Positions 19,477-61,549 of a stretch of 64,000 bases of DNA are shown in pieces. The notes beneath the pieces are model-generated. The model was given only the letters and a program-made list of their open reading frames with translations. It had not been told where the DNA came from and did not search any database. This DNA is from Parazoarcus communis (GTDB lineage: Bacteria > Pseudomonadota > Gammaproteobacteria > Burkholderiales > Rhodocyclaceae), in contig NZ_CP022187.1 in assembly GCF_003111645.1 (NCBI RefSeq), positions 2,046,001 to 2,110,000 on the forward strand, written 5' to 3'. How positions within the stretch are numbered: position 1 is the stretch's first letter; every line of letters starts with the position of its first letter. A program made the translations under genes and the position numbers.

Positions 19477-19513
19477 AACGTTATTCGGCTCATGCAATGA
19501 GCCGAATAACGTT
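19477..19513. repeat. Perfect 17-bp inverted repeat (hairpin)
   Basis: Arms AACGTTATTCGGCTCAT (19477-19493) and its exact complement (19497-19513) are separated by GCA. It lies between the end of the ABC permease gene and the Fic remnant. There is no T-run. It could be a terminator for the long leftward operon, or a mobile-element or repeat remnant. Confidence 0.8.
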
Positions 19514-19569
19514 CCGGGAAAGACGCCACGCTTACGGGAAGGATGGCGAGCGGGTACGTCCAGTCGCTA

Positions 19570-20385
19570 TCAGGCTCCGCCCGGCTTCCCGGCGCGCTTG
19601 ACGATACCGCGCTGCGGGTCGTAACCCCATGCGGCGAGCAGGAAAAACACGGCCAGGCAACCCACGACGATCGCCAGCGATTGCGGCGCCCACTGCCCGT
19701 ACAGCGCAAAGCGCGTCGCCTCCACCGCGTGGCTGAAGGGGTTCCAGCTGGCGATGAAGTGGATCACGCTGGCGCCGGATTCTTCCAGCTTCCACAGCGG
19801 ATACAGCGCCGGCGACACGAAGAACATCGGGAAGATGACGAAATTCATCGTGCCGGCGAAGTTCTCCAGTTGCTTCACATGCACCGACAGCAGCAGCCCG
19901 AGCGCCCCCAGCATCATCCCCGACAGCACCAGCACCGGCAGCGCATACAGCCAGCCCGACCACGGCACGCCCACGTCGAACAGCGCCGCGATCGCCAGAA
20001 ACACGTAGGCTTGCAGCACCGACAGCAGCGTACCCGCCAGCAACTTGGCAAACAGCAGGTAGGCGCGTGGCAGCGGCGCGGTGAGCAGCAACCGCATCAC
20101 CCCCATCTCGCGGTCGTACACCATCGCCAGCGAAGACTGCATGCCGTTGAACAGCAGCACCATGCCGAGCAGACCGGGCACGATGTAGGTCTGATAAGGG
20201 ATATAGGTGTCGTAAGGCGGGATGATCGACACCCCGAACACGTTCTGGAAGCCGGCGGCAAACACCACCAGCCACAGCAGCGGACGCACCAGGGCTGAGG
20301 CCAGACGGCCACCCTGGCGGACAAACTTGGCCACCTCTCGGCTGGTGACGGCCTGCAGGGCGAGGAGCGCATGGCTCAGTTTCAT
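19570..20385 (-). CDS. pedC: ABC-2 type permease of PedC/LutF type (PQQ/lanthanide-associated)
   Basis: A 271-aa inner-membrane protein with about six helices, including LVRPLLWLVVFAAGFQNVFG near the start and MNFVIFPMFFVSPALYPLWK near the end. It fits the ABC-2 permeases found in PQQ-alcohol-dehydrogenase clusters (PedC in Pseudomonas putida, LutF in Methylorubrum). Those systems are needed for growth on trace lanthanides. It is the last gene of the leftward operon, 33 bases after the binding protein. Orthology is inferred from the four-gene set rather than from a search. Confidence 0.85.
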   Translation of the reverse strand: MKLSHALLALQAVTSREVAKFVRQGGRLASALVRPLLWLVVFAAGFQNVFGVSIIPPYDTYIPYQTYIVPGLLGMVLLFNGMQSSLAMVYDREMGVMRLLLTAPLPRAYLLFAKLLAGTLLSVLQAYVFLAIAALFDVGVPWSGWLYALPVLVLSGMMLGALGLLLSVHVKQLENFAGTMNFVIFPMFFVSPALYPLWKLEESGASVIHFIASWNPFSHAVEATRFALYGQWAPQSLAIVVGCLAVFFLLAAWGYDPQRGIVKRAGKPGGA

Positions 20386-20418
20386 GTCGGGGTTCCAGGT
20401 CGGCTGGTGGGTTCAGGG

Positions 20419-21600
20419 TCAGGGTTTGCAGCGGCTGTCGCGCTGATCGAAGCCCAGCGTGTCCATATTGTTCTGCTGATGCAGGAAGCCCTGGATCGGC
20501 GCACGCTCGATCACCGAGTTGTGGGTGGCGAGCAGGATGGGCTGGCGCAACTGGCGATCCCAGGGGCGAAAGCCGAGCCGGTTGCCCTTGAAGCCATCGA
20601 TCGTGATCTCGTCGCCGGCGAGGTAGCTCACCAGCTTGGCGAAAGGCGCATTGTCGGTGCGCACCACCGCCTCGATCACCGACTTGATCGCAATCCACGC
20701 CGCCCAGTCGGGGCTCGACGGCTGGCGCTCGGCCTGCTTCTGCATGCGGCTGGACAGTTGCGGCGCGCCGTGGCGCTCCCACGCCCAGTGCCAGGCCTCG
20801 GCAACCAGGCCCTCACTGCCCACGACCGGACGCGGGCGCACGGTTCGATACGGCAGATTGCGCGCGAATTCGCCGTCGCTGTCCGCAACGAACACCACAT
20901 CGTGATCGGCTCCACCCGTCAGCAGCAGGGGATTGCCCTGATCACGTTGGCGCGGATCGTTGCTGAGCACGAAGCTGCGCTTGTCCACGATCTTCAACCC
21001 GAAGCGTTTTGCCGACGTCTCGAAGGCTGCGCCCAGCAACTTGTCGGCCGCCAGCGGCCCTTCCAGCAGCAGCACCGAACGCCACTTGCGCGACACCAGA
21101 TACTGCGCCATCGCGTCGGTCTGCATCGCATGGTTGGGCAAGGTGTGGAAGAGATGCGGCTGGCATTGCTCCTGACGTAGCACGTCGTCTGCGGCCGACA
21201 CGTTGAACAGCAGCAGTTCCTTGCCGCGAGTGGCCCTGGCCAGTTCGGCCACGACCTCGGCCGGCGCGTCGACCAGGAAATAGCGCACCCCCGCAGACTG
21301 CAGCGTATTCACCTGCGCCAGCAATGCTGCGGCGTCGGCACCCTTCACCCGTTCGAGCGCGAACTCGAGCTTGAGCGCCTGGCCGACGAAACGCGCTTCC
21401 CGCATCGCCACCTCGGCGCCGGCAAAGGGCCTGCCAAAGGCTTGCGACAGATTGCGATGGAAGGTTCGCTTCTCGTCGTATCGCGCATCCTTGTCGAGCT
21501 CAAGGAAGGCGAAGCGGATGGTCTCTGCGGCAGCAGGCAGGCTGAACAACAGCACGGCGACGATGGCCAGCGATCGGCGAAGGAGAGTCGAAAATGGCAT
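20419..21600 (-). CDS. PQQ-associated ABC substrate-binding protein
   Basis: About 393 aa from ATG 21600 (MPFSTLLRRSLAIVAVLLFS, a signal peptide ending AAAE). The open frame reaches 21681, but the extra residues are polar. The fold is like branched-chain amino-acid receptors (SRKWRSVLLLEGPLAADKLL; DHDVVFVADSDGEFARNLPY). This is the unusual receptor type seen next to the PQQ-linked beta-propeller, ATPase and permease genes (PedA1/LutA-like). Its ligand may be a lanthanide or a metal complex; this is not shown by sequence. Confidence 0.83.
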   Translation of the reverse strand: MPFSTLLRRSLAIVAVLLFSLPAAAETIRFAFLELDKDARYDEKRTFHRNLSQAFGRPFAGAEVAMREARFVGQALKLEFALERVKGADAAALLAQVNTLQSAGVRYFLVDAPAEVVAELARATRGKELLLFNVSAADDVLRQEQCQPHLFHTLPNHAMQTDAMAQYLVSRKWRSVLLLEGPLAADKLLGAAFETSAKRFGLKIVDKRSFVLSNDPRQRDQGNPLLLTGGADHDVVFVADSDGEFARNLPYRTVRPRPVVGSEGLVAEAWHWAWERHGAPQLSSRMQKQAERQPSSPDWAAWIAIKSVIEAVVRTDNAPFAKLVSYLAGDEITIDGFKGNRLGFRPWDRQLRQPILLATHNSVIERAPIQGFLHQQNNMDTLGFDQRDSRCKP

Positions 21601-21670
21601 GTGAAATTCCCTGGAGTCTGGCGACTGCCGGGCAAGCAGCGGCCCCGCAGTCGCACCAGCAGCGTTCGGA

Positions 21671-22657
21671 TCAGTCGTCAATCACCGCGGTATGCGGCAC
21701 GCGCCCGACCGGAACCGAACGCAACACCTTGTTGTTCCTGGTATCAACGATCGACATGTCGTCCGACAGCCCATTCACAACGAACAACCGACTTTGGTCG
21801 CGGCTCAGGGTGACACCCCACGCGCGCTGCCCGACCAGCACGTATTCCTTCACCGCACGGCTGGCGACATCGACCACGGCGACATGGTTGGCACGCCCCA
21901 GGGTGACATAGGCGGTCTTGCCGTCGCGGGTCATGGCGATGCCGACCGGGGTCACATCGTCGGCACGGAAGCCCTTGGGCGCGAACGATACGGTGCCCTT
22001 GATCTCGTTTTTCCTGCCATCGATGATGGTGACCGAGCCGCCGAGTTCGTTGGTGACCCAGATCTCGCTGCTGTCCGGGGTGGCGGCGAAGCGGCGCGGC
22101 CGGTTGCCGACCACGATATTGGCGGCGATTTCGTTGGTCGCGGTGTCGATCACATGCACCATGTTGGCAACTTCCGAGGTCACATACAGGCGCTTGCCGT
22201 CAGGGCTCATCATCACGCCCTCAGGCTCCTCGCCGACCTCGATCTCGGCCACTTTCTTGCCGGCCGCGACGTCGATCACCGACACCTTGGCGTCTTCTTC
22301 CATCGACACATAGAAGCGCTTGCTGTCAGGGCTGAAGGCGAACATCTCCGGATCTTCGCCGACTTCAATCGAGCGTTCCACCGCCAGCCTGGCGATGTCG
22401 ATCACGTCCACCCGCTCGGAATTGCTCGCGATCACGAACAGTTTCTGGCCGTCAGTGCTGAGCCTCATGTCGCGCGGTCGCTCACCGGTGGGAATGGTCT
22501 TCACCACCGCGTAGGTCTTGCCGTCGAGCACGGTCACCGCATTGTCGTTCTCGCTGCTGACAAAGATCTGGCCGGAGCCCTTGGCGTGCACGGCGCTCAC
22601 AGGCAGAAGTAACAGCGCACTGGCAGCGAGTGCCATGCTGAGGGAGTTCAGACGCAT
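21671..22657 (-). CDS. YVTN-type beta-propeller protein, PQQ-associated
   Basis: A 328-aa secreted protein from ATG 22657, preceded by AGGAG. The signal peptide ends VHAKG. The rest is about seven repeats of about 42 residues with the YVTN pattern (IFVSSENDNAVTVLDGKTY, LYVTSEVANMVHVIDTATNE, IWVTNELGGSVTIIDGRKNE), i.e. a seven-bladed propeller. Such proteins accompany PedA-type transporters in PQQ clusters, probably in the periplasm as a carrier or receptor. It lies 23 bases after the ATPase gene. Confidence 0.9.
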   Translation of the reverse strand: MRLNSLSMALAASALLLLPVSAVHAKGSGQIFVSSENDNAVTVLDGKTYAVVKTIPTGERPRDMRLSTDGQKLFVIASNSERVDVIDIARLAVERSIEVGEDPEMFAFSPDSKRFYVSMEEDAKVSVIDVAAGKKVAEIEVGEEPEGVMMSPDGKRLYVTSEVANMVHVIDTATNEIAANIVVGNRPRRFAATPDSSEIWVTNELGGSVTIIDGRKNEIKGTVSFAPKGFRADDVTPVGIAMTRDGKTAYVTLGRANHVAVVDVASRAVKEYVLVGQRAWGVTLSRDQSRLFVVNGLSDDMSIVDTRNNKVLRSVPVGRVPHTAVIDD

Positions 22658-22680
22658 GAGGACAATCTCCTGTTGGTTAT

Positions 22681-23460
22681 TCATTTTGACGACTGCAGCG
22701 ATCCTGATGAGGGTTCGCCACCCTCCGTCATGGTCATGAAAGCCTCGGCCAGCGACGCCACACCGGAAGCGGCCACCAGCGACTGCGGCGTTCCTTCGGC
22801 GAGGATCTTTCCACGGTGCAGCACGATCACGCGATCGGCTTCCTCAGCCTCATCCACCAGGTGCGAGGCCCACAAAATACCCACGCCGCCCTCGCGCAGC
22901 GCCAGCACCTCGTCCAGCAGCTGTCGACGCGAGGCAGGGTCGAGCCCCACCGTGGCCTCGTCCATCAGCAAGACCGAGGGTTTGTGCACCAGCGCCCGCG
23001 CCAGTTCGACCTTGCGCCGGTTGCCGCCGGAGAGCTCGCGTACCCGGTCGTGGGCGCGTTCGGACAGCCCCAGCCGTTGCAGCGCATCCGCAATCCGGGC
23101 CTTCGATTCGCGCCCGGCGATGCCATGCAGGCGGGCGTGAAACACCAGATTGGCCTCCACGCTCAGGTCGAGGTCGAGCGTCATCTGCTGAAACACCACG
23201 CCGATACGGCCCAGCGCTCGCACCGGTTCGCGCTGCATGTCGTGACCGCACACCCGCACCACGCCGCCGTCGGCATTGAACAGGCCGGTAAGCAGCTGGA
23301 ACAGGGTGCTCTTGCCCGCCCCGTTCGGCCCCAGCAGCGCAACGAACTCGCCCGGCCTCACCGTCAGGCTGACGCCCTTGAGCGCCTCGCGCGTGCCGTA
23401 GGATTTGCGCACCTCCTCGACCTGCAGCGACCACTGCGCGACCACCACGTCCTCATGCAT
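22681..23460 (-). CDS. pedB: ABC ATPase, PQQ/lanthanide-associated (PedB/LutE type)
   Basis: About 259 aa from ATG 23460, which overlaps the preceding ATPase gene by eight bases. It has Walker A GPNGAGKST, a Q-loop FQQMTLDLDL, signature LSGGNRRKVE, Walker B VLLMDEATVGLD and switch WASHL. The SGGNRRK variant and ABC-2-type style fit the ATPase partner of the PedC-like permease. The open frame extends upstream to 23592, but that part lies inside the preceding gene. Confidence 0.88.
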   Translation of the reverse strand: MHEDVVVAQWSLQVEEVRKSYGTREALKGVSLTVRPGEFVALLGPNGAGKSTLFQLLTGLFNADGGVVRVCGHDMQREPVRALGRIGVVFQQMTLDLDLSVEANLVFHARLHGIAGRESKARIADALQRLGLSERAHDRVRELSGGNRRKVELARALVHKPSVLLMDEATVGLDPASRRQLLDEVLALREGGVGILWASHLVDEAEEADRVIVLHRGKILAEGTPQSLVAASGVASLAEAFMTMTEGGEPSSGSLQSSK

Positions 23461-24259
23461 CCGTGCGCACCTCAATGTTGTTTCTGCCCTGTGCCCTTCC
23501 CTGACCTGCATTTCCACTTTGATCCAGCAAACCGGCCAGCAGGGCCGGATGGCGGTCGAGCAGTTCGCGCTGCAGTGCGAGCACCGCGGCATCGTTGGGC
23601 AAGCGCGGACCGCTCAACCCTTCCCGCCACTCCAGCATCACCCTGCCCGGCGCACCGGACATGAAACACACGCGACCGCCCAGCGCCAGTGCCTCGCGCA
23701 GGTCGTGGGTAACGAACAGCACGGAGGTATTGCAGCGCTGCCACAAACTGACCAGCATCGCGCGCAGGCGGTCGGCGGTGGGCGCGTCGAGCGACACGAA
23801 GGGCTCGTCCATCAGCAGCACCCGGGGCTCGATCACGAAGGCCCGCGCCAGCGCCACCCGGCGCTGCATGCCGCCGGAGAGCCGGCCCGGATAGGCGTCG
23901 AGCACGTCGCCCAGTTCCATCGCCTGCAACAGGTCGCGCGCCCGTGCCGGTGCAGTCGGATCATCGCCCGCCACCAGCAGCACGTTCTCGATCACGGTCA
24001 GCCACGGCATCAGACGCGGCTCCTGGAACATGAAGCCGATGCCGTCCTGCAAGGGACTGCCATCCAGGGTGACGCGCCCGCTCACATCGTGATCGAGCCC
24101 GCCGACGACGTTGAGCAAGGTGCTCTTGCCGCAGCCCGAGGGGCCGACCACACAGACAAATTCGCCCGGCTGGACCTGCAGCCGCAAATCTGCCAGCGCA
24201 ATATGCGAGCGCCCGCCCCGGTCCGGATAACACTTGCGCACAATCTCGATATCCAGCAT
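23453..24259 (-). CDS. ABC importer ATPase, nitrate/sulfonate/taurine (SsuB/TauB) type
   Basis: A 268-aa ATPase with Walker A GPSGCGKST, Q-loop FQEPRLMPWLTV, signature LSGGMQRRVALARA, Walker B VLLMDEPFVSLD and switch VTHDL. The PRLMPW segment after the Q-loop is typical of the nitrate/sulfonate/taurine family. It starts three bases after the permease stop and its end overlaps the next ATPase gene. It powers the importer formed with the two upstream genes. Confidence 0.93.
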   Translation of the reverse strand: MLDIEIVRKCYPDRGGRSHIALADLRLQVQPGEFVCVVGPSGCGKSTLLNVVGGLDHDVSGRVTLDGSPLQDGIGFMFQEPRLMPWLTVIENVLLVAGDDPTAPARARDLLQAMELGDVLDAYPGRLSGGMQRRVALARAFVIEPRVLLMDEPFVSLDAPTADRLRAMLVSLWQRCNTSVLFVTHDLREALALGGRVCFMSGAPGRVMLEWREGLSGPRLPNDAAVLALQRELLDRHPALLAGLLDQSGNAGQGRAQGRNNIEVRTDA

Positions 24260-24262
24260 CGC

Positions 24263-25093
24263 TCAGCCCCTCCACCGCGTCAGCCGGCGCTCGAGCGGGC
24301 GCAGCGCAAAGGCCTCGACCACCAGCACGATCGCGGCGAACACCAGCGTATAGGCCAGGATGCCGGCGATGTCGAAGAACTGGAAGAAGACATTGAGCTG
24401 GAAGCCGATGCCGTTGCTGCGCCCGAGCAGCTCCACCACCAGCACGATCTTCCAGATCAGCGACAGCCCGGTGCGCGCGGCTGCCATCAGATAGGGGTAG
24501 AGCTGCGGCAGATACACCCGTGACAGCGTGCGCCAGCGCGGCAGGCGATAGGCGCTGGCGACCTGCATCAGGCGCGGATCGACCGCACGTGCGCCCTCGC
24601 GCACGGTAACGATCACGGTGGGGATCTTGTTGATCGCCACCGCGACAATCGCGGCGGTGTCGTTGAGGCCGAACCAGACGTAACACAGGATGATCGTGAC
24701 CAGCGCCGGCACATTGAGCCCGAGCACCAGCCATCCGTCGAGGAAGAGATCGAGCGTGCGCCAGCGCCCCATCGCGATGCCGATCACGGTGCCAATCACC
24801 ATCGCGGCGGCAAACGCGATCACCACCCGCGACAGGGTGATGCCCAGGTGATACGGCATCACCAGCGACAGGGTTTCGTCGATCACACGACCGAACACCG
24901 TCAGCGGCGCTGGCAGCGCGTTGCTCTGCAGCACGGACGCCAGCACATGCCACAACACCACGAACACGAGCAGCGAAGCGAGGCGAACGCCCGCGTCGCC
25001 GCCATGGCGAAAGCGCCTGGAAAGTGGCGCGGATGCCGCAGCCAGATGCTGTGCAGCGGTGTCGTGGCCGGCGCCCTGGACCCGCTCGATCAC
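24263..25093 (-). CDS. ABC importer permease, nitrate/sulfonate/taurine (SsuC/TauC) type
   Basis: A 276-aa permease with about six helices and an EAA loop near VASAYRLPRWRTLSRVYLPQ. It begins with GTG overlapping the stop of the binding-protein gene (GTGA), so translation is coupled. An N-terminal charged extension of about 30 residues precedes the first helix; a later start cannot be excluded. Its substrate is set by the neighbouring binding protein. Confidence 0.92.
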   Translation of the reverse strand: MIERVQGAGHDTAAQHLAAASAPLSRRFRHGGDAGVRLASLLVFVVLWHVLASVLQSNALPAPLTVFGRVIDETLSLVMPYHLGITLSRVVIAFAAAMVIGTVIGIAMGRWRTLDLFLDGWLVLGLNVPALVTIILCYVWFGLNDTAAIVAVAINKIPTVIVTVREGARAVDPRLMQVASAYRLPRWRTLSRVYLPQLYPYLMAAARTGLSLIWKIVLVVELLGRSNGIGFQLNVFFQFFDIAGILAYTLVFAAIVLVVEAFALRPLERRLTRWRG

Positions 25094-26079
25094 CGTTCCA
25101 GGCCCCCGGCCCAGAAGGTACCGCTGGCAAGCGATGTGGCCTTGCCGACCAAGGCCTGCCCGCCCTCGGCGGCGAGGATGGCGAACACCTTGCGTGCCAC
25201 CTGCTCGGACTCACCCATGCTCGCAGCGGGAATGCCCGCACGGAATCCCTCGCGCAGCGCCACGAAAGTGGCATCGTCCGTGACCTTCATCATCGGCCGC
25301 AGCTCATCCCACACCGCGTCCGATTCAAGCATGTGCTGCTTGGTCGCGGCCGAGGCGCGCAAAAAACTGCGTATCGCCTGCGGATGCGCCGCCGCCCACT
25401 TCTCACGAAAAACCCAGCCCACCAGCGGCAACTCGGCATCCACGTCGAGGGTGCGCAGGATCTCGCCCATGCTCAGCAGCGGCACCATGCCCGCGGCCCG
25501 CAGGCGCGCGCCGTAGTGCCAGAAGTTCATCGCCGCGGGAAATTCCCCGCGCAGCATCAGCTCGTTGAGCAGCGGCGGCGCAACGAAAGCCGGCTCCAGC
25601 CAGCCTGCGGCGTCCGCTCCCACGGTGCGGCGGGCATAGGCGCGCAGCAGCAGCCAGCTCTTGTCGAGTGGCCCGCCGGCCACACCCAGACGCTTGCCCT
25701 TGAGGTCGGCGAACGTTTTGACCCCGGCGTCGGGACGCACCATCACCCCGCCCACCGCCAGCGAATACGGCACAAAGGTGAAGTCCTGCCCCTCGGCGCG
25801 CTGACGCGCAACCCAGATCCAGTCATTGACCACGACATCGACTGCACTGCCGAGCATGGCGATATTGGCTGCATCCTTCAGCGCCAGCGGCACGACCTCG
25901 ATCCGCACGCCCTCGCGCTCGGCAAACCCGCCTTTCTGCATCACCGCCAGTTCCCAGCTGACCGTGCCGAACTGCAGCACGCCAACCCGCAGCACCGGCA
26001 GTTCGGCAGCACGAACCGGCGCCGCCGTGAGGCATAGCAGCGCGAAGAGCGCCAGGCCGGCTCTCAGAAACGACATCAT
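25090..26079 (-). CDS. ABC substrate-binding protein, SsuA/NMT1-like, PQQ-operon linked
   Basis: About 329 aa from ATG 26079 (an adjacent ATG at 26076 is equally possible), preceded by GGGGGAG. The signal peptide has LALFALLCLTAAPVRAAE. The body follows the SsuA/ThiY-like periplasmic receptor pattern: LRVGVLQFGTVSWELAVMQK, AMLGSAVDVVVNDWIWVARQ, KTFADLKGKRLGVAGGPLDK. It is the first transporter gene after pqqA, 105 bases away, and the same strand continues through seven transport genes. Its ligand is unknown. Confidence 0.9.
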   Translation of the reverse strand: MMSFLRAGLALFALLCLTAAPVRAAELPVLRVGVLQFGTVSWELAVMQKGGFAEREGVRIEVVPLALKDAANIAMLGSAVDVVVNDWIWVARQRAEGQDFTFVPYSLAVGGVMVRPDAGVKTFADLKGKRLGVAGGPLDKSWLLLRAYARRTVGADAAGWLEPAFVAPPLLNELMLRGEFPAAMNFWHYGARLRAAGMVPLLSMGEILRTLDVDAELPLVGWVFREKWAAAHPQAIRSFLRASAATKQHMLESDAVWDELRPMMKVTDDATFVALREGFRAGIPAASMGESEQVARKVFAILAAEGGQALVGKATSLASGTFWAGGLER

Positions 26080-26184
26080 GGCGCTCTCCCCCGTTCTTGT
26101 TCGCTGTATTCCCGTGGGCAGGAAGCAACGCGGCAACCAGTTTCTGCGGGGCCGACGCTGTATGCGCCACCCCGCCCGATCACC

Positions 26185-26259
26185 TTAACGGGTGGCGATG
26201 TACATCGTGATTTCAAACCCAAAACGAAAATCGCAGGCTGCAGGGGTTTCCCATTTCAT
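26185..26259 (-). CDS. pqqA: PQQ precursor peptide PqqA
   Basis: A 24-codon gene (ATG at 26257-26259, TAA at 26185-26187) with AGGAGA six bases upstream. The peptide begins MKWETPAACDFRFGFE and ends ITMYIATR. Glu16 and Tyr20, the residues fused to make pyrroloquinoline quinone, are present in the EITMY motif. It matches PqqA in length, composition and C-terminal pattern. No pqqB, C, D or E lies in the window, so maturation enzymes must be elsewhere. It heads an apparent operon of two ABC systems. Confidence 0.95.
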   Translation of the reverse strand: MKWETPAACDFRFGFEITMYIATR

Positions 26260-26370
26260 GACGTGTCTCCTGTTGGTCGGTAAAGCGACATGGCGTTCTG
26301 GATGACCGCTCACAGCCCCAGTGTGCCTTCGGCGTCGCATCCGCCGCATCAGGATTCCGACCGAAATCGC

Positions 26371-26387
26371 CTCATGATTTTCATGAG
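26371..26387. promoter_or_regulatory. Palindrome upstream of pqqA
   Basis: CTCATGA-TTT-TCATGAG is a perfect 7-3-7 inverted repeat, 112 bases upstream of the pqqA start in the 183-base gap to the next gene. It may be an operator for pqqA and the transport genes. The regulator is unknown; the MoxX-like protein at 60905 is one candidate. Confidence 0.5.
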
Positions 26388-26442
26388 ATCCAGGATCAAA
26401 GGGATCAAAGGGGTCAGAGTCGTTTGATCGCTTCGTTTCGCC

Positions 26443-26658
26443 TCAACCCACCGCGCGCTTGAAGATCCAGTTGCGGTTGGTATTGCTGTCCGGTGCCTGC
26501 ATCAGCTCCCAGCCCTGGGCGCCGAGCTTGTTCAGCTCCGCCAGCACGACCTCCGTATAGGCGCGCAGGCGGTCTTTTTCGCGGCTGCCGTGGGCGCGGG
26601 CGACGTCTTCGGCGATCTGGTGGATGTCGCTGCGGATCTGGTACTCAAAGCATTGCAT
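26443..26658 (-). CDS. DUF4177-like small protein
   Basis: A 71-aa protein. The pattern FEYQIRSD ... LNKLGAQGWELMQAPDSNTN ... NWIFKRA is that of DUF4177 (small alpha-beta proteins with an LN-LG-GWE motif). Function is unknown. It is divergent from arfB, with its start 24-90 bases from the possible arfB starts, and lies upstream of the pqqA promoter region. Confidence 0.75.
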   Translation of the reverse strand: MQCFEYQIRSDIHQIAEDVARAHGSREKDRLRAYTEVVLAELNKLGAQGWELMQAPDSNTNRNWIFKRAVG

Positions 26659-26747
26659 AGGGTGCTCGATAGGGTGATGAGGTGCGCATGGCAGGACGCC
26701 AGCACATGGGCGACAATAACACCCAACTCCTGCACCGGCCGCCCCGC

Positions 26748-28173: not shown

Positions 28174-29559
28174 TCAGGAAAAAGACGCCAGCGGAAGGAC
28201 AATCTCGAAGACCGTGCGCCCCGCGTCCGATACTGCGCTCACGCGCCCGCCGTGGGCCTCGACAATCGAGCGGGTGATGGCCAACCCCAGTCCGGCGCCC
28301 TCGCCATGCCGGTGACGCTCCGGCCCTGCGCGGTGAAAGCGTTCAAAGATCCGGCCAAGCTGCTCGGGGGCGATGCTGTCGCCGGCGTTGCACACCCGCA
28401 GCACGGCCTCACCCTTCGAAGCCGAAACATCGATGTCCACCGTTGTGCCGCGCGACGCGTGCCTGAGGGCATTCGACAGCAGGTTTGAAACCGCGCGCCG
28501 CAACATCAGTCGGTCGCCGCTGACCCGTGCTTCTCCGTTGACCTCGACACGCACGCCCTGTTCCTCGGCGAGCGCATCGTAGAACTCTGCCAGCGCGCGT
28601 GCCTCGTCGGCCAGCGACACCACTTCGGCGGGTCGCGGCAGGTGTCCGTTCTCGGTCTGCGCCAGAAACAGCATGTCGCTCACCATGCGCGCGATGCGTT
28701 CGTACTCCTCCAGATTCGAGCCAAGCACTTCGCGGTACTCTTCGGTGCTGCGCGCACGCGACAGCGCGACGGCGGTCTGCGTCATCAGGTTGGAGACCGG
28801 CGTGCGCAGTTCGTGGGCGATATCGGCGGAGAAGTCGGCGAGGCGCTGGAAGGACCGTTCGAGGCGTTCGAACATGCCGTTGAGCGCCTCTACCAGTTCG
28901 CGCACCTCGGCCGGCGCATCGCCCTCGATCAGGCGTACGCCGAGACGATCCGCCGACTGCCGCCTTGCCACCTCGGTCACCCGGCGCAGGGGTGCGAGAC
29001 CTCTGTGCGCGGCCAGCCAGCCCAGCAGCGCGGCCACGGCCGTCGCCACCACGATACCGATCCACATCCGCATGCGCACCTCGTCGAGGAAGCGGGTGTG
29101 ATGAACAATATCAAGCCCGAGCAGCACCCGGACCGGACGCGAGGAAAGCGGCATCTCCAGCACTGTTTCGCGCCCCACGAAGTCACGCCCGTCCAGCCGC
29201 CACGCCCCGCTACCATTGGCGAGAGCCTCGCCTGCGAGTTGGGCAGGGGCAAACTGTGATGCGTTGAGCACGTAGATCACGCTGCCCTCATCGTCGCGCA
29301 TCAACAGCGACACCCCGTCGTGACCGGTAAAGGCATCGTCCAGCGCCTGCGGAAGCGCCTCCAGCTCCGCAGCAGAACCCACCCGCTGCAACAGCTTGGC
29401 GATCAGGCTGAACTTGCCCGACAGTTCGTGCTCGTCCAGCTCGCGAAAGTGATCCTCGGCAGCACGTCCGAGCACGACCCCGACGACAATAAGCAGACAG
29501 GCGGTGAGTACCGCGAAGAGCAATCCCAGGCGTGCGGTCAGCGACAGCGGAACGCGCAC
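28174..29559 (-). CDS. cusS: Heavy-metal sensor histidine kinase CusS-like
   Basis: About 461 aa from GTG 29559 (VRVPLSLTARLGLLFAVLTA). The open frame continues upstream inside cusR and is not used. Two membrane helices flank a periplasmic domain of about 130 residues, then HAMP, the H-box DFSADIAHELRTPVSNLM, an N-box (LRRAVSNLLSNALRHA) and the GEGAGLGLAI ATP-lid box. It senses copper or silver in the periplasm and phosphorylates the linked regulator. It begins three bases after the cusR stop. Confidence 0.92.
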   Translation of the reverse strand: MRVPLSLTARLGLLFAVLTACLLIVVGVVLGRAAEDHFRELDEHELSGKFSLIAKLLQRVGSAAELEALPQALDDAFTGHDGVSLLMRDDEGSVIYVLNASQFAPAQLAGEALANGSGAWRLDGRDFVGRETVLEMPLSSRPVRVLLGLDIVHHTRFLDEVRMRMWIGIVVATAVAALLGWLAAHRGLAPLRRVTEVARRQSADRLGVRLIEGDAPAEVRELVEALNGMFERLERSFQRLADFSADIAHELRTPVSNLMTQTAVALSRARSTEEYREVLGSNLEEYERIARMVSDMLFLAQTENGHLPRPAEVVSLADEARALAEFYDALAEEQGVRVEVNGEARVSGDRLMLRRAVSNLLSNALRHASRGTTVDIDVSASKGEAVLRVCNAGDSIAPEQLGRIFERFHRAGPERHRHGEGAGLGLAITRSIVEAHGGRVSAVSDAGRTVFEIVLPLASFS

Positions 29560-29561
29560 GC

Positions 29562-30242
29562 TCAGCTCTCCCCGGTCGCTTCGAGCACGTAGCCCATGCC
29601 GCGCACGGTACGGATCAGGCGCGGCTCGAAGGGCTCGTCCACCTTGGCGCGCAACCGCCGCACGGCCACTTCGATCACGTTGGTGTCGCTGTCGAAATTC
29701 ATGTCCCACACCTGCGAGGCGATCAGCGAACGCGGCAGCACCTCGCCCTGCCGCCGCAGCAGCAACTCAAGCAGCGCGAACTCCTTGGCGGTGAGGTCGA
29801 TGCGCACACCCGCGCGCAGCACGCGCCTGCGCACGAGGTCGAGTTCGAGGTCGGCCGCACGCAGCAGCTCGGGCTCCTTCGCCTTGCCCCGGCGCAACAG
29901 GGTACGCACACGGGCAAGCAGCTCGGAAAAGGCAAACGGCTTCACCAGGTAGTCATCGGCCCCGAGCTCCAGGCCACGCACCCTGTCCTCGACCTGGTCG
30001 CGCGCCGTAAGAAAGAGCACCGGCATCTCCTGCCCCTGCCCGCGCACGGTCTGCAATACGCCCCAGCCATCAAGCGAGGGCAGCATCACGTCGAGCACGA
30101 TCAGGTCGTAACCGCCGCCAAGCGCCAGGTGCAGACCGTCGAGTCCGTCGCGCGCGAGATCGACCACGAAGCCCGCCTCGACCAGGCCCTGGCGCAGGTA
30201 GTCGCCGGTTTTGGGTTCGTCCTCGACAATCAGGATCTTCAC
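29562..30242 (-). CDS. cusR: Heavy-metal response regulator CusR-like
   Basis: A 226-aa OmpR/PhoB-type regulator. The receiver domain has ILIVEDE, the phospho-acceptor in [14 protein letters not shown], and LTARD. The C-terminal winged helix has [20 protein letters not shown] and [16 protein letters not shown], typical of CusR/CopR. It is divergent from the cupredoxin gene. A perfect palindrome that fits its class lies 66 bases upstream. Confidence 0.94.
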
Positions 30243-30307
30243 GGCTTGCCCGCCTCGAATGCAGTGTTCCCCATATTGTGCCCGCCGCCGCCCAGCGTCG
30301 AGCCAGG

Positions 30308-30323
30308 ATTACAAAGATGTAAT
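30308..30323. promoter_or_regulatory. CusR/CopR-type operator
   Basis: ATTACA-AAGA-TGTAAT is a perfect 6-4-6 palindrome between divergent cusR and the cupredoxin gene. It matches the form of CopR/CusR boxes in proteobacteria. It would let the regulator control both directions. No further perfect copy was seen upstream of cusC. Confidence 0.72.
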
Positions 30324-30494
30324 GTTCGCGTCAGCTTTCTGTCCGTCACCGACAGGCAAGATTGCGTGGCTCAAGTCGGACACGTATCTTCGTTGCCCCG
30401 CCTATCACCAAGACTGACCATCCATGACCTCTTGCGCCCGCAACAACAGCTTCAACGCAATTTCCACGCTGCCCGGGCACGAGCGGAGGCAGCC

Positions 30495-30995
30495 ATGACC
30501 AGCCGCCGCCGCTTTATTGCTGCCGGTATCGCCAGCGGCTTGCTTGGCTTCACCTCCATGGCGCGCGCCCATGGCGACGCTGCCCACACTGGCAAGGCAA
30601 AGACACCCGATGCCGCCGAGCAGCAGGCGTGGGGAATTGCCGGCGCACCCGGCAAGGCGCACCGCACGATCCGCATCGAAATGAGCGACGACATGCGCTT
30701 CACCCCGGACCGTATCGCGGTGAGGCTGGGCGAAACCATCCGCTTCGAGCACCACAACACGGGTGCGGTACTGCACGAGATGGTCATCGGCACGCCGGAA
30801 ACACTCGCCGAGCACGCAGCCCTGATGATGCGTTTTCCAGACATGGTGCATGACGAGCCGTGGATGGCGCACGTCCCGGCCGGCGAGAAGGCGGAAATGA
30901 CCTGGACCTTCAACCGCGCAGGGGATTTCGAATTTGCCTGCCTGATGCCGGGCCACTATCAGGCAGGCATGAAAGGCGCGCTCATCGTCCGTTGA
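30495..30995 (+). CDS. Periplasmic cupredoxin-domain protein
   Basis: 166 aa from ATG 30495, after GGAGGCAGCC; the long upstream frame is not coding. The N-terminus MTSRRRFIAAGIASGLLGF is a likely Tat signal. The cupredoxin core has FTPDRIAVRLGETIRFEHHN, HEMVIGTPE and FACLMPGHYQAGM, giving a plausible His-Cys-His-Met type 1 copper site. It probably binds or carries copper in the periplasm. It is the first gene of the rightward copper operon. Confidence 0.88.
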   Translation: MTSRRRFIAAGIASGLLGFTSMARAHGDAAHTGKAKTPDAAEQQAWGIAGAPGKAHRTIRIEMSDDMRFTPDRIAVRLGETIRFEHHNTGAVLHEMVIGTPETLAEHAALMMRFPDMVHDEPWMAHVPAGEKAEMTWTFNRAGDFEFACLMPGHYQAGMKGALIVR

Positions 30996-31059
30996 GCCGG
31001 AGGCTAACGCCACTCACCGCCACGGCAATCACTCGTACAGACCCACATAAGGAACAGCC

Positions 31060-31410: not shown

Positions 31411-31578
31411 TCCGTCCCCCGGTGATCGCTCCCCACGGGGCCGGGGCGCAGCACGGGTCGGGCCGGCTACGCACCAGCGCGCACCGTCGAATCCACTGCT
31501 GGAACCGCCCCGCATGCCTCGCCTGAACGCGAACTGCAAGCGACTCCTTGTCTGAAACTCTCTTTCATCAAGGCCGCC

Positions 31579-55593: not shown

Positions 55594-57393
55594 TCAGGAC
55601 TTGTGCAGCTTGAACACCCACACCGAGCCACCCTGCTCAAGCGTGTTGATGCGGCGGGCAACATCGCCCCCCCACAGCGGCACCGCACCGCCCCAGCCGG
55701 AAACGACGGCGATGTACTGCTCGCCATTCTCTTCCCAGGTCACCGGGGGCGCGATCACGCCGGAGCCGGTCTGGAACTGCCACACTTCCTCACCCGTCGT
55801 GGCGTTGATCGCCTTCAGGTAACCCTCCGGCGTACCGTAGAACACGAGGTTGCCTGCGGTGGTCATCACGCCACCCCACAGCGGTGCGCTGTTCTTGACC
55901 TCCCACACGATCTTTCCGGACACCGGATCGACTGCGCGCAGCGAACCGATGTAATCCTCGTACAGCGGCTTGATGGTAAAACCGGCGCCCAGATAGGCTG
56001 CGCCGCGCTTGTACGACACCGGCTCGTTCCAGATGTCCATGCCCCACTCGTTGGCCGGCACGTAGAAGAGACCGGTCTTCGGGCTGAAAGCCATCGGCAT
56101 CTGGTTCTTGCCACCGAGGAAGGACGGTGCGGCGAACACCACCTCACCCTTCTGACCATCGCCCCCCCCTTCGGTGAAGGGGTTGCCCGGACGCTTGTCG
56201 TCGTTGTACATCGGACGGCCGGTCTTGAGGTCGTAACCCTTTGCCCAGTCGATGCGGCTCACGAAGGGGAAGGCATTGATCAGCTTGCCGTTGGTGCGGT
56301 CATTGACGAGGAAGAAGCCGTTCCGGTCGGCCTTGCCACCGGCCTTCACCATCTTGCCGGTCTTCGGATCGTTGTATTCGAAGGAGATGAATTCGTTCAC
56401 CCCGTCGAAGTCCCAGCCGTCATGCGGCGTACCCTGGAAGTGCCACACGATCTTGCCGGTATCGGGATTGATCGCGATCGTGGAGGACGAATACAGGTTG
56501 TCGCCCGGACGCAGCCAGCTGTTCCACGGTGAGGGGTTGCCGGTGCCGATGTAGATCAGGTCGGTATCCGGATCATAGTAGGCCGCCTGCCAGGGAGCCG
56601 CGCCGCCCGTCTTCCACAGGTCGCCGGGCCAGGTTGCGTTGGTCTTGCCGGAGATGCCGTTGTCGCTCGGCTTGCCGTCCTTGTCGAACTTCTGCCCCAT
56701 GTGACCTTCGACCGTCGGTCGGGTCCAGATCAGCTTGCCGGTCTTCGCATCGCGTGCATCAACGCGGCCGACTACGCCGAACTCGCCGCCCGAGTTGCCG
56801 GTGATGACCATGCCCTTGACGATCTGCGGCGCAGCGGTAAAGGAGTAGCCCGCCTTGTAGTCCTCGATTGTCTCGCGCCACACCACCTTGCCGGTGTCCT
56901 TGTCCAGCGCCACGAGCTTGGCGTCGAGCGTGCCGAAGATCACCAGGTTGTCGTAGATCGCGGCGCCGCGGTTGATCACGTCACAGCACGGCATGATGCC
57001 GTCGGGCAGACGGGCCTCGTACTTCCACAGCTTCTCGCCGGTCTTGGCATCGAGCGCAAACAGACGGCTGTAGGAAGCCGTTACGTACATCTTGCCGTCG
57101 AAGATGAGGGGCTGGGATTGCTGACCGCGCTGCTTCTCGCCACCGAAGGAGAACGACCAGGCCGGAACGAGATCCTTCACCGTTTCCGTATTGACCTGCG
57201 TCAGCGGGCTGTAGCGCTGACCCTTGGTACCCAGACCGTGAGTGACCACCTGGGTGGTGATCGTGGCGTCGTTGACGATGTCGTCATTGGTGACTTCTTT
57301 CGCGGTGGCCTGCGTCGCTCCCAGCACCAGCAGCGCGCCGGCAATGACGCTCAGCCGGCGTGGTGCGGCAGACATCCTTGATCTTGTACTCAT
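55594..57393 (-). CDS. Lanthanide-type PQQ-dependent alcohol dehydrogenase (ExaF/PedH-like)
   Basis: 599 aa from ATG 57393, preceded by AGGAGG. The Sec signal ends GATQATAKE. It has the eight-bladed quinoprotein fold, the vicinal disulfide Cys136-Cys137 (GIMPCCDV), metal ligands Glu204 (SGGEFG), Asn286 (GTGNPSP) and Asp328 (GWDFDG), and an extra acid Asp330. Calcium enzymes have Ser or Ala at that place; lanthanide enzymes have Asp. It should oxidise alcohols in the periplasm and reduce a cytochrome c. The open frame upstream to 57669 is not coding. Confidence 0.93.
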
Positions 57394-57707
57394 CGTTTTC
57401 CTCCTTGGTCTCTCGGTATTTGTCTCAGGCAAGCTCCTGCGGATCGTGCAGACACCGCAGACCTCCTGCCCTCCCTGTCTGCAAGCGTCATGCCATCCCG
57501 CAAGCACTGGCCCTTCGGTTTCACCCGGTGCCAGCGCCTGTATCAAATCAAGGCAAGTGCTCCAGAATGGAACACGAAACAACACATGGAACACCCGTAA
57601 AGCGAGCGAGTCCCGCGTCGGGCCTGCGGGGCAAGGCGACTGGCACAGGCATTGCATGTAGACGCGCAAGAACGGCGCGGCACGAACCGCGCCTCAGAGG
57701 AGACACA
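57394..57707. promoter_or_regulatory. 314-base divergent control region, ADH and SoxYZ-like genes
   Basis: No gene is supported here. The region must hold both promoters. A direct repeat of ATGGAACAC (57567-57575 and 57586-57594, 19 bases apart) is a candidate activator site, such as for the MoxX-like regulator encoded at 60905. No similar repeat was found upstream of pqqA. Confidence 0.45.
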
Positions 57708-58490
57708 ATGCGTCTGATCACACTGATCGCCGGCGCGGCCCTGGCATTCGCCCTGGCGCCGCTTGCGTTCGCAGCAGCTGAAAGCCCCGCGCAGGACCCG
57801 CTCGGCTCCTCGCGCTGGGGCGACATGAAGCGCGAGTTCTTTCGCGACGAACGGGTCGTCTTCGATGAGCGCGTGAAGGTGTCCGCGCCCGCCACCGCAG
57901 AGGACGCCATGAACGTGCCGGTCAAGGTCGATGCCAGCGCGCTCGCAGGGGTCGAGGAAGTGCTCGTCTTCGCCGACTTCAACCCCATCGTGAAGGCGCT
58001 CAGCTTTGAACCCGGACGGGCACGCAGCGTCCTCGGCTTCCGCCTCAAGCTGCAGCAATCAACCCCGGTTCGCGCTGCAGCGCGCACGGCGGATGGCATC
58101 TGGCATGTCGGCGGCATCTGGGTCAATACCACCGGAGGCGGCTGCACCCTGCCCTCGACCGGCGCCGGATCGCCGGAGTGGGAACAGCGCCTGAACGAGG
58201 TCAGTGCACGCCTGTGGCCGCGAATCGATGGCGGCACCCGGTTGCGCCTGCAGGTGATCCATCCGATGGACACCGGACTGGCCCCGGGCATTCCGGTGTT
58301 TCACATCGATGAACTGGGCGTGCTGCTGGCCGGGGGCGAGCAGCTGATGATGATCCGTCCGGCCGAACCCGTTGCCGAGAATCCGCTGTTCACCATCGAC
58401 ATCCCGCCCGGCATCCTCGGCACCGGCGTGCTGAAGATCAACGGACGCGACAACAACGGCAACCGCATCGACGCAGAGGTGACGCAATGA
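57708..58490 (+). CDS. Quinoprotein-associated SoxYZ-like carrier protein
   Basis: 260 aa from ATG 57708, preceded by AGGAGA; the long upstream frame from 57360 overlaps the ADH promoter. Signal peptide: LIAGAALAFALAPLAFAAAE. An N-terminal SoxY-like half (VDASALAGVEEVLVFADFNP) contains GGGCTLP with a potential carrier cysteine, and the C-terminal half is SoxZ-like (HPMDTGLAPGIPVFHIDELG). It is the single-chain SoxYZ fusion often found next to PQQ dehydrogenases; its cargo is unknown. The stop overlaps the next start. Confidence 0.87.
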   Translation: MRLITLIAGAALAFALAPLAFAAAESPAQDPLGSSRWGDMKREFFRDERVVFDERVKVSAPATAEDAMNVPVKVDASALAGVEEVLVFADFNPIVKALSFEPGRARSVLGFRLKLQQSTPVRAAARTADGIWHVGGIWVNTTGGGCTLPSTGAGSPEWEQRLNEVSARLWPRIDGGTRLRLQVIHPMDTGLAPGIPVFHIDELGVLLAGGEQLMMIRPAEPVAENPLFTIDIPPGILGTGVLKINGRDNNGNRIDAEVTQ

Positions 58491-59461
58491 GCAGGCGGCA
58501 CACCGCAAGCCGTGGCCCGAAGCTGATCGCAGCCCTCGCGCTCGGCCTGCAGGCCCTGCTGTTCTCCCCCTCCGCCCTCACCGCTTCCTTCGACTACGAA
58601 CTCGCGCCGCGCGAGATTGCCGACGGCGTCTACGTGCTGGTCGGCCTCAAGGAGGACTTCTCCTTCGACAATGGCGGCAACATCGTAAACACCGGCTTCA
58701 TCGTCGGCCCCAGCGGCATCACCGTGATCGACACCGGCTCGTCAAAGCGCTACGGCGAGCAGCTGCGCAACGCCATCGCCCGCATCAGCCCCTTGCCGAT
58801 CGTGAAGGTGATCAACACCCACCATCATCCGGACCATTTCCTCGGCAATCAGGCCTTCCCTGCGGACACGCTGTCGGCCACCGCGGTGACCATGCAGGGG
58901 ATCGGCGACGAAGGCCCGGCCTTTCTTGACAACATGTACCGCCTCAACGGCGACTGGATGCTCGAAACCGAGATCGCCGCGCCGCACGCCGCGCTCGCTG
59001 CGGGCCGGATCGACGCGGGGGGGCGCACACTCGAACTCATTGCCTTGAGCGGCCACACCCCGGCCGACCTTGCCGTGCTCGACATCGCCAGCGGCACCCT
59101 GTTCGCCTCCGACCTGGTGTTCAACGGCCGTGCGCCCACCACGCCGCATGCCAGCATCGACCAGTGGCTGAAGGCCCTGGATCAGCTGCAGCAGATCGAC
59201 TTCCGCCACATCGTCCCCGGACACGGCGACCCTGCCACGGACAAGGCGCCCATCGAGCAGACCCGCCGCTACCTGCAGTGGCTGCAGCAGTCCATCCGCG
59301 AGGGCGCCGAACAGGGGCTGGACATGACCGAGATGCTGGCACGGCCGGTACCGGCCGAGTTCTCCGGCCTCGCCGAGGTGTCGCGCGAATACCTGCGCTC
59401 GGTGACCCATCTGTACCCGGCGGCGGAGCAGGCCGCCCTGAGCCGAGGCAGCCGCAGATGA
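58487..59461 (+). CDS. Quinoprotein relay-system zinc metallohydrolase (MBL fold)
   Basis: 324 aa from ATG 58487 (ATGA overlap with the SoxYZ-like gene). A signal-like hydrophobic stretch precedes TASFDYE. The metallo-beta-lactamase site is NTHHHPDHFLGNQAF, with later metal ligands in ALSGHTPADLAV and VPGHGDPA. It pairs with SoxYZ-like carriers in PQQ alcohol-dehydrogenase clusters and may process or detach a carrier-bound intermediate. Function in this setting is not established. Confidence 0.87.
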   Translation: MSRRHTASRGPKLIAALALGLQALLFSPSALTASFDYELAPREIADGVYVLVGLKEDFSFDNGGNIVNTGFIVGPSGITVIDTGSSKRYGEQLRNAIARISPLPIVKVINTHHHPDHFLGNQAFPADTLSATAVTMQGIGDEGPAFLDNMYRLNGDWMLETEIAAPHAALAAGRIDAGGRTLELIALSGHTPADLAVLDIASGTLFASDLVFNGRAPTTPHASIDQWLKALDQLQQIDFRHIVPGHGDPATDKAPIEQTRRYLQWLQQSIREGAEQGLDMTEMLARPVPAEFSGLAEVSREYLRSVTHLYPAAEQAALSRGSRR

Positions 59462-59504: not shown

Positions 59505-60908
59505 ATGAAGACCGACACCGGCAGCACACCCCAGCGCCCGCAGCGGGGCGGTATCCGCATCAGCCTGCATGCGCGCCTCAGCCTGATCATCACCGCTCTG
59601 CTCGCGCTTGCACTGATGGCAGGCGCGGCCGTGTGGACGAGTGAAGCCCGCAATACCATCCATGAGGAAACCGAGGCGGCCAATCGCGTCGCAGCTCAGT
59701 GGCTCAGCGTGCTGGTCGCCGAAACCCGGCGCGACCCGCTGCAGGCCGAAACCAATCTGGTGTCCGCCCTGCACGAAATCGGCCGCATCCGCGCCCATGT
59801 GATCGAGGCGAGCACGGCCAGCGGCGAACTCGTCTATCGCTCGCCCGGCCCCACCTACAAGGCCGGGCGCAGCGCCCCGGAATGGTTTGCGGCACGCCTC
59901 ACGCCCCAGCTGCCGCTGCGCCATTTCGCCACCGGAGAGCTGCAGCTGAGCCTGATCCCCGACCCGTCGCGCTCGGTGCTCGACGCATGGGACGACCTCC
60001 GTGGCCTGTCGGGCTGGTGCCTGGCCCTGCTCCTGCTGGCCTGGGTCGGCAGTCACGCCGCACTCAACCGTGCGCTGCAGCCGCTACGGGCGATTGACGA
60101 CGCCTTCGCGCGGGGCGCCGCAGGTCATTTCGACCGCCGCCTTGCCGTGGGTGGTGTGCCCGAGCTCGATCGCCTGGCGCACAGCTACAACCTGCTGGCC
60201 GAACGGCTCGACCACAGCCTGGCCAACAACACCCGGCTCGAAGCGGACCAGCGTTTCGCACGCGCGCTGCAAAGCCATCTGGAAGAGGATCGCCGAGCCA
60301 TCGCGCGCGAGCTGCATGATGAACTCGCGCAGGGCATCACCGCCGTGCGCGCCATCGCAGGCGCGATTCAGCAGCGCAGCGCCGACCAGCCCGGCATCCA
60401 TGGCAGCGCCCAGGCCATCGTCTCCATGGCGGGTCAGATGCATGACGGGGTGCGCGCAATCCTGCAGCGCCTGCGCCCGCCCAGTCTCGGCCACGGCGGC
60501 GTCGACGAGGCAGTGAAGACCCTGTGCGAACAATGGTCTGCGCTGCATCCCGACATCCGCCTCAAGTGCAGCACCGAGACGCCGGGGCGCGAAGTCGACG
60601 ATGCGCTGCAGCTCACGGTGCAGCGCCTGCTGCAGGAGGGGCTGACCAACGTGGTACGCCACGCCGGGGCCAGCGAGGTCGAGGTCGCGCTGCACTGCGC
60701 GGACAGCAGCATCGAGCTGCGCATCACCGACAACGGCTGCGGCCTCGGTGCGCCCTGCACTGACGACCGCCCGCGCTACGGCCTGACCGGCATGCAGGAA
60801 CGCACGCTGGCACTCCGCGGCGAACTGCGCTTCGAGCCCGCGCCCCGGGGCGGGCTGAGCGTTTGCGCCACCCTGCCCCTGCACACCCCCACGGAGACCA
60901 CGACATGA
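59505..60908 (+). CDS. MoxY-like sensor histidine kinase (NarX-type HisKA_3)
   Basis: A 467-aa membrane kinase. Helix 1 (LSLIITALLALALMAGAAVW, residues about 25-45) and helix 2 (about 168-190) flank a periplasmic domain of about 120 residues, which looks like the LapD/MoxY N-terminal sensor. HAMP follows. The phospho-acceptor is His271 in ARELHDELAQG. The ATPase part has GLTNVVRHAGASEV and a GLTGMQERT-type end. It may sense alcohol or metal state for the PQQ cluster. Its stop overlaps the next start. Confidence 0.9.
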   Translation: MKTDTGSTPQRPQRGGIRISLHARLSLIITALLALALMAGAAVWTSEARNTIHEETEAANRVAAQWLSVLVAETRRDPLQAETNLVSALHEIGRIRAHVIEASTASGELVYRSPGPTYKAGRSAPEWFAARLTPQLPLRHFATGELQLSLIPDPSRSVLDAWDDLRGLSGWCLALLLLAWVGSHAALNRALQPLRAIDDAFARGAAGHFDRRLAVGGVPELDRLAHSYNLLAERLDHSLANNTRLEADQRFARALQSHLEEDRRAIARELHDELAQGITAVRAIAGAIQQRSADQPGIHGSAQAIVSMAGQMHDGVRAILQRLRPPSLGHGGVDEAVKTLCEQWSALHPDIRLKCSTETPGREVDDALQLTVQRLLQEGLTNVVRHAGASEVEVALHCADSSIELRITDNGCGLGAPCTDDRPRYGLTGMQERTLALRGELRFEPAPRGGLSVCATLPLHTPTETTT

Positions 60909-61549
60909 CATCGCTGAACGGACTGCGCATCCTGCTCGCCGACGATCACGCCATCGTCCGCATGGGCTTCCGCCTGCTGATCGAAGGCGCCGGCGCCACC
61001 GTCGTCGCCGAAGCCAACAGCGGCGAAACCGCGCTGACCCTGCATGCCGAACACCGGCCCGACGCCCTGGTGATGGATGTATCGATGCCCGGCATGGGCG
61101 GGCTCGCCGCGCTCGACCGCCTGCTCGCCCATGACAGCGATGCCCGGGTACTGATGCTGTCGGCGCATGAGGACACCCAGATTCCGTCGCGTGCCCTGCA
61201 GGCCGGCGCCACCGGCTATCTCTCCAAGCGCGCAGATCCGGCCGAGCTGATCAGGGCGATCGCTGCGGTGGCGGGCGGTCAGCGCTATATCGACGCCGAT
61301 CTCGCGCCCCGCCTCGCGCTCGCGTGCCTGGGCAACAGCAGCGACCCGGCGGACACGCTGACTGGCAAGGAATTCAGCGTATTCCTGCAGCTCGCCCGCG
61401 GGCACTCGGTGACCGAAGTCGCCGGCACGCTCAAGCTCAGCACCAGCACCGTCGGCACCCACCTGTATCACATCAAGCAGAAGCTCAACGCCGCAAATGC
61501 GGCCGAGCTGGCACTGATCGCGGTGCGCTCAGGCCTGGTGGAAGCCTGA
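60905..61549 (+). CDS. MoxX-like response regulator (NarL/LuxR type)
   Basis: 214 aa from ATG 60905, overlapping the kinase stop (ATGA). The receiver domain has LLADDHAIVRMGF and phospho-acceptor Asp58 in LVMDVSMPGMGG. The LuxR-type helix-turn-helix is LTGKEFSVFLQLARGHSVTE, then AGTLKLSTSTVGTHLYHIKQ. By place and type it resembles MoxX/AgmR/ExaE regulators of PQQ alcohol dehydrogenases and may bind the region 57394-57707. Confidence 0.92.
   Translation: MTSLNGLRILLADDHAIVRMGFRLLIEGAGATVVAEANSGETALTLHAEHRPDALVMDVSMPGMGGLAALDRLLAHDSDARVLMLSAHEDTQIPSRALQAGATGYLSKRADPAELIRAIAAVAGGQRYIDADLAPRLALACLGNSSDPADTLTGKEFSVFLQLARGHSVTEVAGTLKLSTSTVGTHLYHIKQKLNAANAAELALIAVRSGLVEA

Follow-up and report, generated by a model that had tools for sequence, protein, structure and literature searches.

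Lanthanide import has been described for PedA1A2BC of Pseudomonas putida, which is reported to be required for growth at nanomolar lanthanide and to be homologous to the Lut ABC transporter of M. extorquens (PMC6839425). PQQ, in turn, is bound by the M. extorquens protein PqqT with a Kd of 50 nM, and structure 9B1V is described as PqqT with PQQ and Gd bound (PMC12828617); the same Kd of 50 nM is given in PMC12124388, according to which the TonB-dependent PQQ receptor PqqU (YncD) is recognized by Y/F/W99, R304, and R365, with F accepted at position 99. The precursor peptide of PQQ is PqqA, in which PqqE cross-links a conserved Glu and a conserved Tyr. Extra pqqA copies located away from pqqBCDE are described for Methylophilaceae, and these encode, like the copy reported here, a short precursor with the conserved Glu and Tyr (PMC11317620, PMC4109929). 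The supply of PqqA is described as the rate-determining factor in a methylotroph strain with five pqqA genes; in M. extorquens, two orphan pqqA genes responded to the neodymium source, and the authors raise the possibility that PqqA takes part in an alternative route of lanthanide uptake (PMC11317620); in another strain, pqqA copies are reported to go down with Nd (PMC10848612).

The window, the whole 64-kb stretch of DNA analysed here, comprises bases 2046001-2110000 of one 4.57-Mb contig of Parazoarcus communis. The original prediction was that a pqqA gene in this stretch heads a row of transport genes, and this observation is confirmed. Unlike the known extra pqqA genes, this copy is not free-standing, but heads importers and appears to derive from a full pqqABCDE at that place. 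All four subunits of the PedA1A2BC/Lut type are encoded, but in the order B-A2-A1-C and preceded by pqqA and a PqqT-like importer; the PqqT-like gene is followed here by permease and ATPase genes and then by the predicted lanthanide importer. The features of the locus are as follows.

19569..26390, minus strand: cassette homologous to the pqqABCDE-transporter block of an Azoarcus sp. MAG (G003), without pqqBCDE (blastn against locus L041)
26371..26387, no strand: palindrome CTCATGA-N3-TCATGAG (CTCATGAAAATCATGAG), here named the PQQ box, 128 bp before the pqqA ATG
26185..26259, minus strand: pqqA, second copy of the genome, recognized by the Pfam and NCBIfam PqqA profiles
26146..26175, minus strand: GC-rich hairpin following pqqA and lacking a T run (z -2.93 for the RNA fold of 26125-26190)
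25090..26079, minus strand: PqqT-like periplasmic binding protein (NMT1/SsuA superfamily); best PDB chains 9b1u/9b1v and 9ooz
24263..25093, minus strand: ABC permease, Sao/Tau/Ssu type; every profile score below cut-off
23453..24259, minus strand: ABC ATPase, Ssu/Tau type; the NCBIfam scores shown all below cut-off
22681..23460, minus strand: PedB-like ATPase; TIGR03864 336.6 bits, cut-off 302.25; the ORF opens at 23592
21671..22684, minus strand: PedA2-like beta-propeller protein; TIGR03866 351 bits, cut-off 287.3
20419..21600, minus strand: PedA1-like substrate-binding protein; TIGR03863 444.2 bits, cut-off 413.6; the ORF opens at 21681
19570..20385, minus strand: PedC-like permease; TIGR03861 366.7 bits, cut-off 241.35

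The 24 codons of pqqA translate into MKWETPAACDFRFGFEITMYIATR. The peptide scores 40.8 bits against the Pfam PqqA profile PF08042 (cut-off 21.1, E 2e-10) and 31.3 bits against TIGR02107 of NCBIfam (cut-off 20), Glu16 and Tyr20 show the conserved spacing of four positions, and an AGGAG ribosome site ends 7 bases 5' of the ATG. The original assignment of the ORF as the PQQ precursor, together with the profile match proposed as its check, is thus borne out. It also holds that no pqqBCDE lies nearby, as a tblastn search with B, C, D, and E (E 1e-6, matches of at most 40% identity discarded) returned nothing in the 64-kb window. Two pqqA matches were found in the genome at E 0.001, and the other one heads a full pqqABCDE near 3.265 Mb, 1.2 Mb from the window, with all profile scores above cut-off (pqqE 527, pqqB 425.9, pqqC 336.5, and pqqD 115.6 bits). 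Because this full set is present and the two PqqA peptides of the genome differ at one position, PqqA from either locus should be maturable by the cell.

The seven transport ORFs lie on the same strand as pqqA and span 26079 to 19570. With the likely starts chosen for pedB (23460) and pedA1 (21600), three of the six junctions among them are overlaps and the rest measure 3, 33, and 70 bp, in agreement with the earlier description of the genes as mostly coupled; the 105 bp between pqqA and the first transport gene are the widest spacing in the row. The genes had also been called a metal-uptake system, and for the last four this stands: four subunit families of the PQQ-associated ABC system adjoin one another, each above its cut-off, and can be equated by their described roles with PedB, PedA2, PedA1, and PedC of Pseudomonas putida, so that genes 4 to 7 are predicted to form a lanthanide importer. 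It does not extend to the first three genes, which are more likely a PQQ importer than a metal-uptake system because their binding protein matches PqqT. The match reaches 214.7 bits to 9b1u/9b1v and 212.8 bits to 9ooz, a sequence close to 9b1u/9b1v, and the other five structures among the matches listed have E-values of 3e-4 or worse. It covers residues 30-318, which is the whole domain, including the GVAGG-LDK stretch, and the Lys of LDK in 9b1u aligns with Lys140 of the window protein, which is invariant in eight of eight aligned relatives. The lysine at the PQQ site of PqqT is K142, and with an offset of 27 residues the Lys of LDK would correspond to it. The permease and ATPase presumably serve the PqqT-like protein, judging from gene order.

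Two other substrates were considered and rejected. For sulfonate or taurine transport by the first three genes, the binding-protein profile gives 30.5 against a cut-off of 163.5, as against 215 bits to PqqT. For the import of copper or heavy metals by the operon, the copper/heavy-metal efflux island of the window (28174-37542), which carries genes for a CopS-like kinase, a CopI-like cuproprotein, and TolC-, CusB-, and CusA-like pump components, is separate from the operon.

The pattern scan for sigma-70 promoters and terminators found none in 25700-26700, where shuffled sequences lead one to expect 0.1 and 0.9, respectively. The original prediction had named a separate promoter and terminator between 26185 and 26079 as evidence against it; the scan detected neither there, although the hairpin without a T run does lie in this interval. 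As no terminator was found between pqqA and the importer, we infer that pqqA and the importer genes are cotranscribed, and their position and the upstream palindrome make joint tuning likely.

The nearest relative of the cassette, at 87% DNA identity, is G003 (JAUSOD010000065.1), in which pqqABCDE is followed by the same seven genes. Positions 19569-26156 of the window align with it at 86.5%, and positions 26163-26390, which hold pqqA and its promoter region, do so at 82.5%. In G003, the two blocks are separated by 3.3 kb that comprise pqqBCDE and are absent from the window. Six further linked loci from three genera (G013; G165, G217, and G257; G085 and G169) were read, and a full pqqABCDE stands near the importer in all seven, in four of the six before the importer and in two after it, and as much as 7 kb of other genes can intervene. 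Since the relatives hold the whole pqqABCDE beside the importers, the lone pqqA is best understood as the remainder after the loss of pqqBCDE: the pqqBCDE-bearing state would be ancestral, and the window would hold a derived, reduced cassette that retained the promoter and pqqA. This bears directly on the version first proposed, a dedicated co-operon of precursor and metal-uptake genes formed when pqqA was brought to a transporter. Gene order and strand fit such an origin and a lanthanide importer is indeed predicted, but the polarity is more likely the reverse, given that seven linked relatives hold the whole pqqABCDE and none of them pqqA alone, and the first transport genes look like PQQ handling; we give it hardly any credence.

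The importer block also occurs in G004, with no adjoining pqqA, so the link is not a universal one. Seven named records hold a PqqT-like relative of at least 34% identity (L056-L062): L060 and L061 (= G003) show pqqBCDE, and L056, L058, L059, and L062 show no pqq gene match within the available stretch around the PqqT-like gene. In L057, a Thauera MAG, pqqB and pqqC but no pqqD or pqqE match are seen in the stretch upstream of the importer. Second, divergent pqqA-pqqD-pqqE clusters with the peptide end RLGFEVTAYVYVR and no pqqB or pqqC match are present in L123, L125, and L130 (from G217, G257, and G169), and the PqqE of L123 scores above cut-off; PMC9851590 refers to an operon pqqADE in a different species. 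Near the linked cluster on the G003 contig, L113:2786-5443 encodes a class III/IV lanthionine synthetase-like protein that scores below cut-off.

The cassette is, as judged from its flanks, an insertion in a chromosomal hotspot. The flanks match those of G001 at 97% and 93%, with about 10.5 kb of other DNA between them; in G002, no more than about 170 bp, including a short repeat copy, separate them; and in G003, the flanking genes are direct neighbors, on a contig other than that of the cassette. The promoter end of the cassette abuts the same repeat as in G002, at 26393-26445, and among the matches listed, parts of this repeat recur elsewhere in G000 and G001. The insert at the hotspot of G001, a sister species (L109, G001:C1:4863000-4875500 compared with window positions 19222-26403), encodes a type I restriction subunit, a radical SAM/B12 protein, a transposase, and Abi_2. 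Just beyond the pedC end of the cassette, 19478-19514 forms a perfect inverted repeat with 17-base arms (AACGTTATTCGGCTCAT-GCA-ATGAGCCGAATAACGTT), and the stretch around it is common in pieces to G001.

The extra pqqA could also be an ordinary one, a stray copy for precursor dosage whose place before the importers is due to chance. Several pqqA genes in one genome are known, with 3 to 12 described in Methylophilaceae (PMC4109929), and in a sample of 61 genomes that includes the genome of the window, 18 carry pqqA, 8 of them in more than one copy. The linkage to the importer nevertheless argues against it. Among 249 genomes of the family (PedA1 threshold E 1e-60, coordinates read by hand), pqqA occurs in 74, PedA1 in 27, and both in 23; they share a contig in 12 of the 23, and in 8 of these 12, the window's genome included, pqqA and pedA1 lie on the same strand within 16 kb, the remaining 4 having them at least 81 kb apart. 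By our own estimate, chance would place both within 20 kb in about 1% of genomes, and the seven loci read besides the window carry the full pqqABCDE, making an accidental neighborhood very unlikely. G001 and G002 have PedH and no PedA1 or PedB above cut-off.

The palindrome upstream of pqqA is perfect and is the sole match in the window at up to three mismatches, of which shuffled sequences give 2.3 by chance. Across 30 pqqA loci from 18 genomes of the order, the window's included, which are related and hence not independent, a site with at most two mismatches lies within 260 bp upstream in 22, as against none of 90 control stretches (best control 4 mismatches). Among the eight weak loci are the pqqA near 3.265 Mb in the same genome and the only pqqA genes of G001 and G002; all three keep just a GAAAATC core, at the same distance. 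As for the linked relatives, G003 and G165 have a perfect box, G217 and G257 one with a single mismatch, and G013, G085, and G169 a degraded one (4-5 mismatches of 17); in G085 and G169, where the importer stands ahead of pqqA, a weak box (ATACAGAAAATCATGAG, 4 mismatches) precedes the importer. The palindrome is probably a regulatory switch. Genome-wide, two perfect copies were found, one before pqqA and one 129 bp before a TonB-dependent receptor gene, and 12 more sites have one or two mismatches; the total is 14, compared with 5 for the reversed control pattern. Six of the near-palindromes were inspected and set aside as probably due to chance, because each of them is covered by a frame that stays open over more than 150 codons, such frames being common in GC-rich DNA.

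The comparison with G003 also bears on whether the retained pqqA still matters. If pqqBCDE were lost as redundant and pqqA was kept only because the importers need the promoter before it, its PqqA would add nothing. In G003, no box precedes the importer genes themselves (the best site has 6 mismatches), so that they probably depend on the pqqA promoter, and the complete pqqABCDE elsewhere makes the window pqqA dispensable in principle. Yet the start, the ribosome site, and the key residues are kept, and relative to G003 the 24 codons show three synonymous differences and a single amino acid replacement, at residue 23, which is weak evidence with so few codons; the intact gene may merely reflect a recent loss of pqqBCDE. 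A functionless relic is a serious competitor, but in our judgment an unlikely one, and we prefer a pqqA that still contributes precursor.

The receptor gene with the second perfect palindrome lies about 5.6 kb beyond the window. Its product matches the NCBIfam PqqU model over the full length at 634 bits, and since the equivalog cut-off is 1200, it is called PqqU-like only. Against the solved PQQ transporter 9c4o, it scores 501 bits; in a hand-counted alignment to 6v81, it has F, R, and R at the positions of Y/F/W99, R304, and R365, and it also keeps the residues at K274 and R536 of PqqU. The protein thus looks like a PqqU-type outer-membrane PQQ receptor, and compared with known PqqU, its gene is distinguished by sharing a palindrome with pqqA, from which joint regulation of the two genes may be inferred. 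In a Glaciecola MAG (L062:7570-10930), a PqqT-like gene, 34% identical, stands directly behind a TonB-dependent receptor gene, suggesting an import pair.

A possible user of PQQ and lanthanide is encoded about 29 kb from the pqqA cassette, together with the following neighbors.

55594..57669 (ORF limits; start probably nearer 57390), minus strand: PedH-like PQQ alcohol dehydrogenase with WDFDG; TIGR03075 793.5 bits, cut-off 480.05
57360..58490 (ORF limits), plus strand: quinoprotein-associated SoxYZ-like carrier; TIGR04557 205.8 bits, cut-off 140
58487..59461, plus strand: quinoprotein relay SoxH-like hydrolase; TIGR04558 410.9 bits, cut-off 300
59505..60908, plus strand: sensor histidine kinase, candidate partner of the LuxR-type regulator
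60863..61549, plus strand: LuxR-type response regulator, candidate reader of the PQQ box; Pfam Response_reg and GerE

No other protein of the genome exceeds the cut-off of the methanol/ethanol PQQ dehydrogenase family besides this dehydrogenase; another, encoded at 3.38 Mb, scores 440.8 against the required 480.05. Its best solved relatives, 6zcv and 6zcw, are labelled quinoprotein ethanol dehydrogenase, and we take them to be PedH. Lanthanide-dependent PQQ alcohol dehydrogenases have a second Asp two residues after the catalytic Asp, and this Asp is present in the WDFDG of the window protein, as in 6zcv, 6zcw, and the lanthanide-dependent XoxF 6oc5, whereas 1flg, presumably a calcium enzyme, has WDFSG. 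The ped cluster of Pseudomonas has the same components within a single genome, namely the importer, PedH, SoxYZ-like and SoxH-like proteins, and a two-component system; the difference is that the importer of the window stands some 29 kb off, in a cassette with pqqA. A role of the palindrome as regulator of all PQQ genes was rejected, as no good site precedes the pedH, SoxYZ, and SoxH-like genes; upstream of pedH and the SoxYZ gene, the best palindrome match has at least 4 mismatches of 14 in each case, which by this test places the dehydrogenase outside the regulon.

Homologs of the histidine kinase (50-55% identical) and of the LuxR-type regulator (67-75% identical) occur beside importer or pqq genes in eight loci of relatives. 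Near the G003 block, only distant homologs of the regulator (39%) are found, and neither in G003 nor in the genome of the window is the regulator near the cassette. The LuxR-type regulator is a natural candidate to bind the box.

Taken together, the locus probably represents a regulated supply of precursor tied to PQQ and lanthanide import, with PqqBCDE contributed from elsewhere in the genome. A regulator, perhaps the LuxR-type protein, would bind the palindrome and switch on pqqA, the importers, and the PqqU-type receptor gene. PqqA would be consumed one for one and matured by the PqqBCDE of the other locus, and for this reason an inducible pqqA could yield more PQQ without extra enzyme. The hairpin after pqqA, lacking a T run, could let pqqA messages exceed those of the importers while the transcript continues, and the importers would retrieve PQQ and supply the PedH-like alcohol dehydrogenase with lanthanide. 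All of the parts have been described before. What appears new is that they are combined, that only pqqA remains of pqqABCDE, and that pqqA has a palindrome in common with a PqqU-type gene; none of the three was found in the literature searched, which covered few subscription papers.

A bolder extension, which we consider improbable, is that PQQ serves as a lanthanophore: the palindromic operator would control pqqA, the PqqU-type receptor, and the PqqT-type and lanthanide importers, and PQQ would be overmade, released, and retrieved with lanthanide. If so, it would perhaps replace a LutH-type receptor. The locus also suggests what might be carried by importers whose assignment to the sulfonate/taurine group by profiles is only a loose one. 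The palindrome marks most of the sampled pqqA promoters of the order and one PqqU-type gene here, which makes a regulator and its regulon testable. For the spare pqqA genes and their response to lanthanides, the locus provides a concrete setting, in which pqqA heads what would be importers of PQQ and lanthanide.
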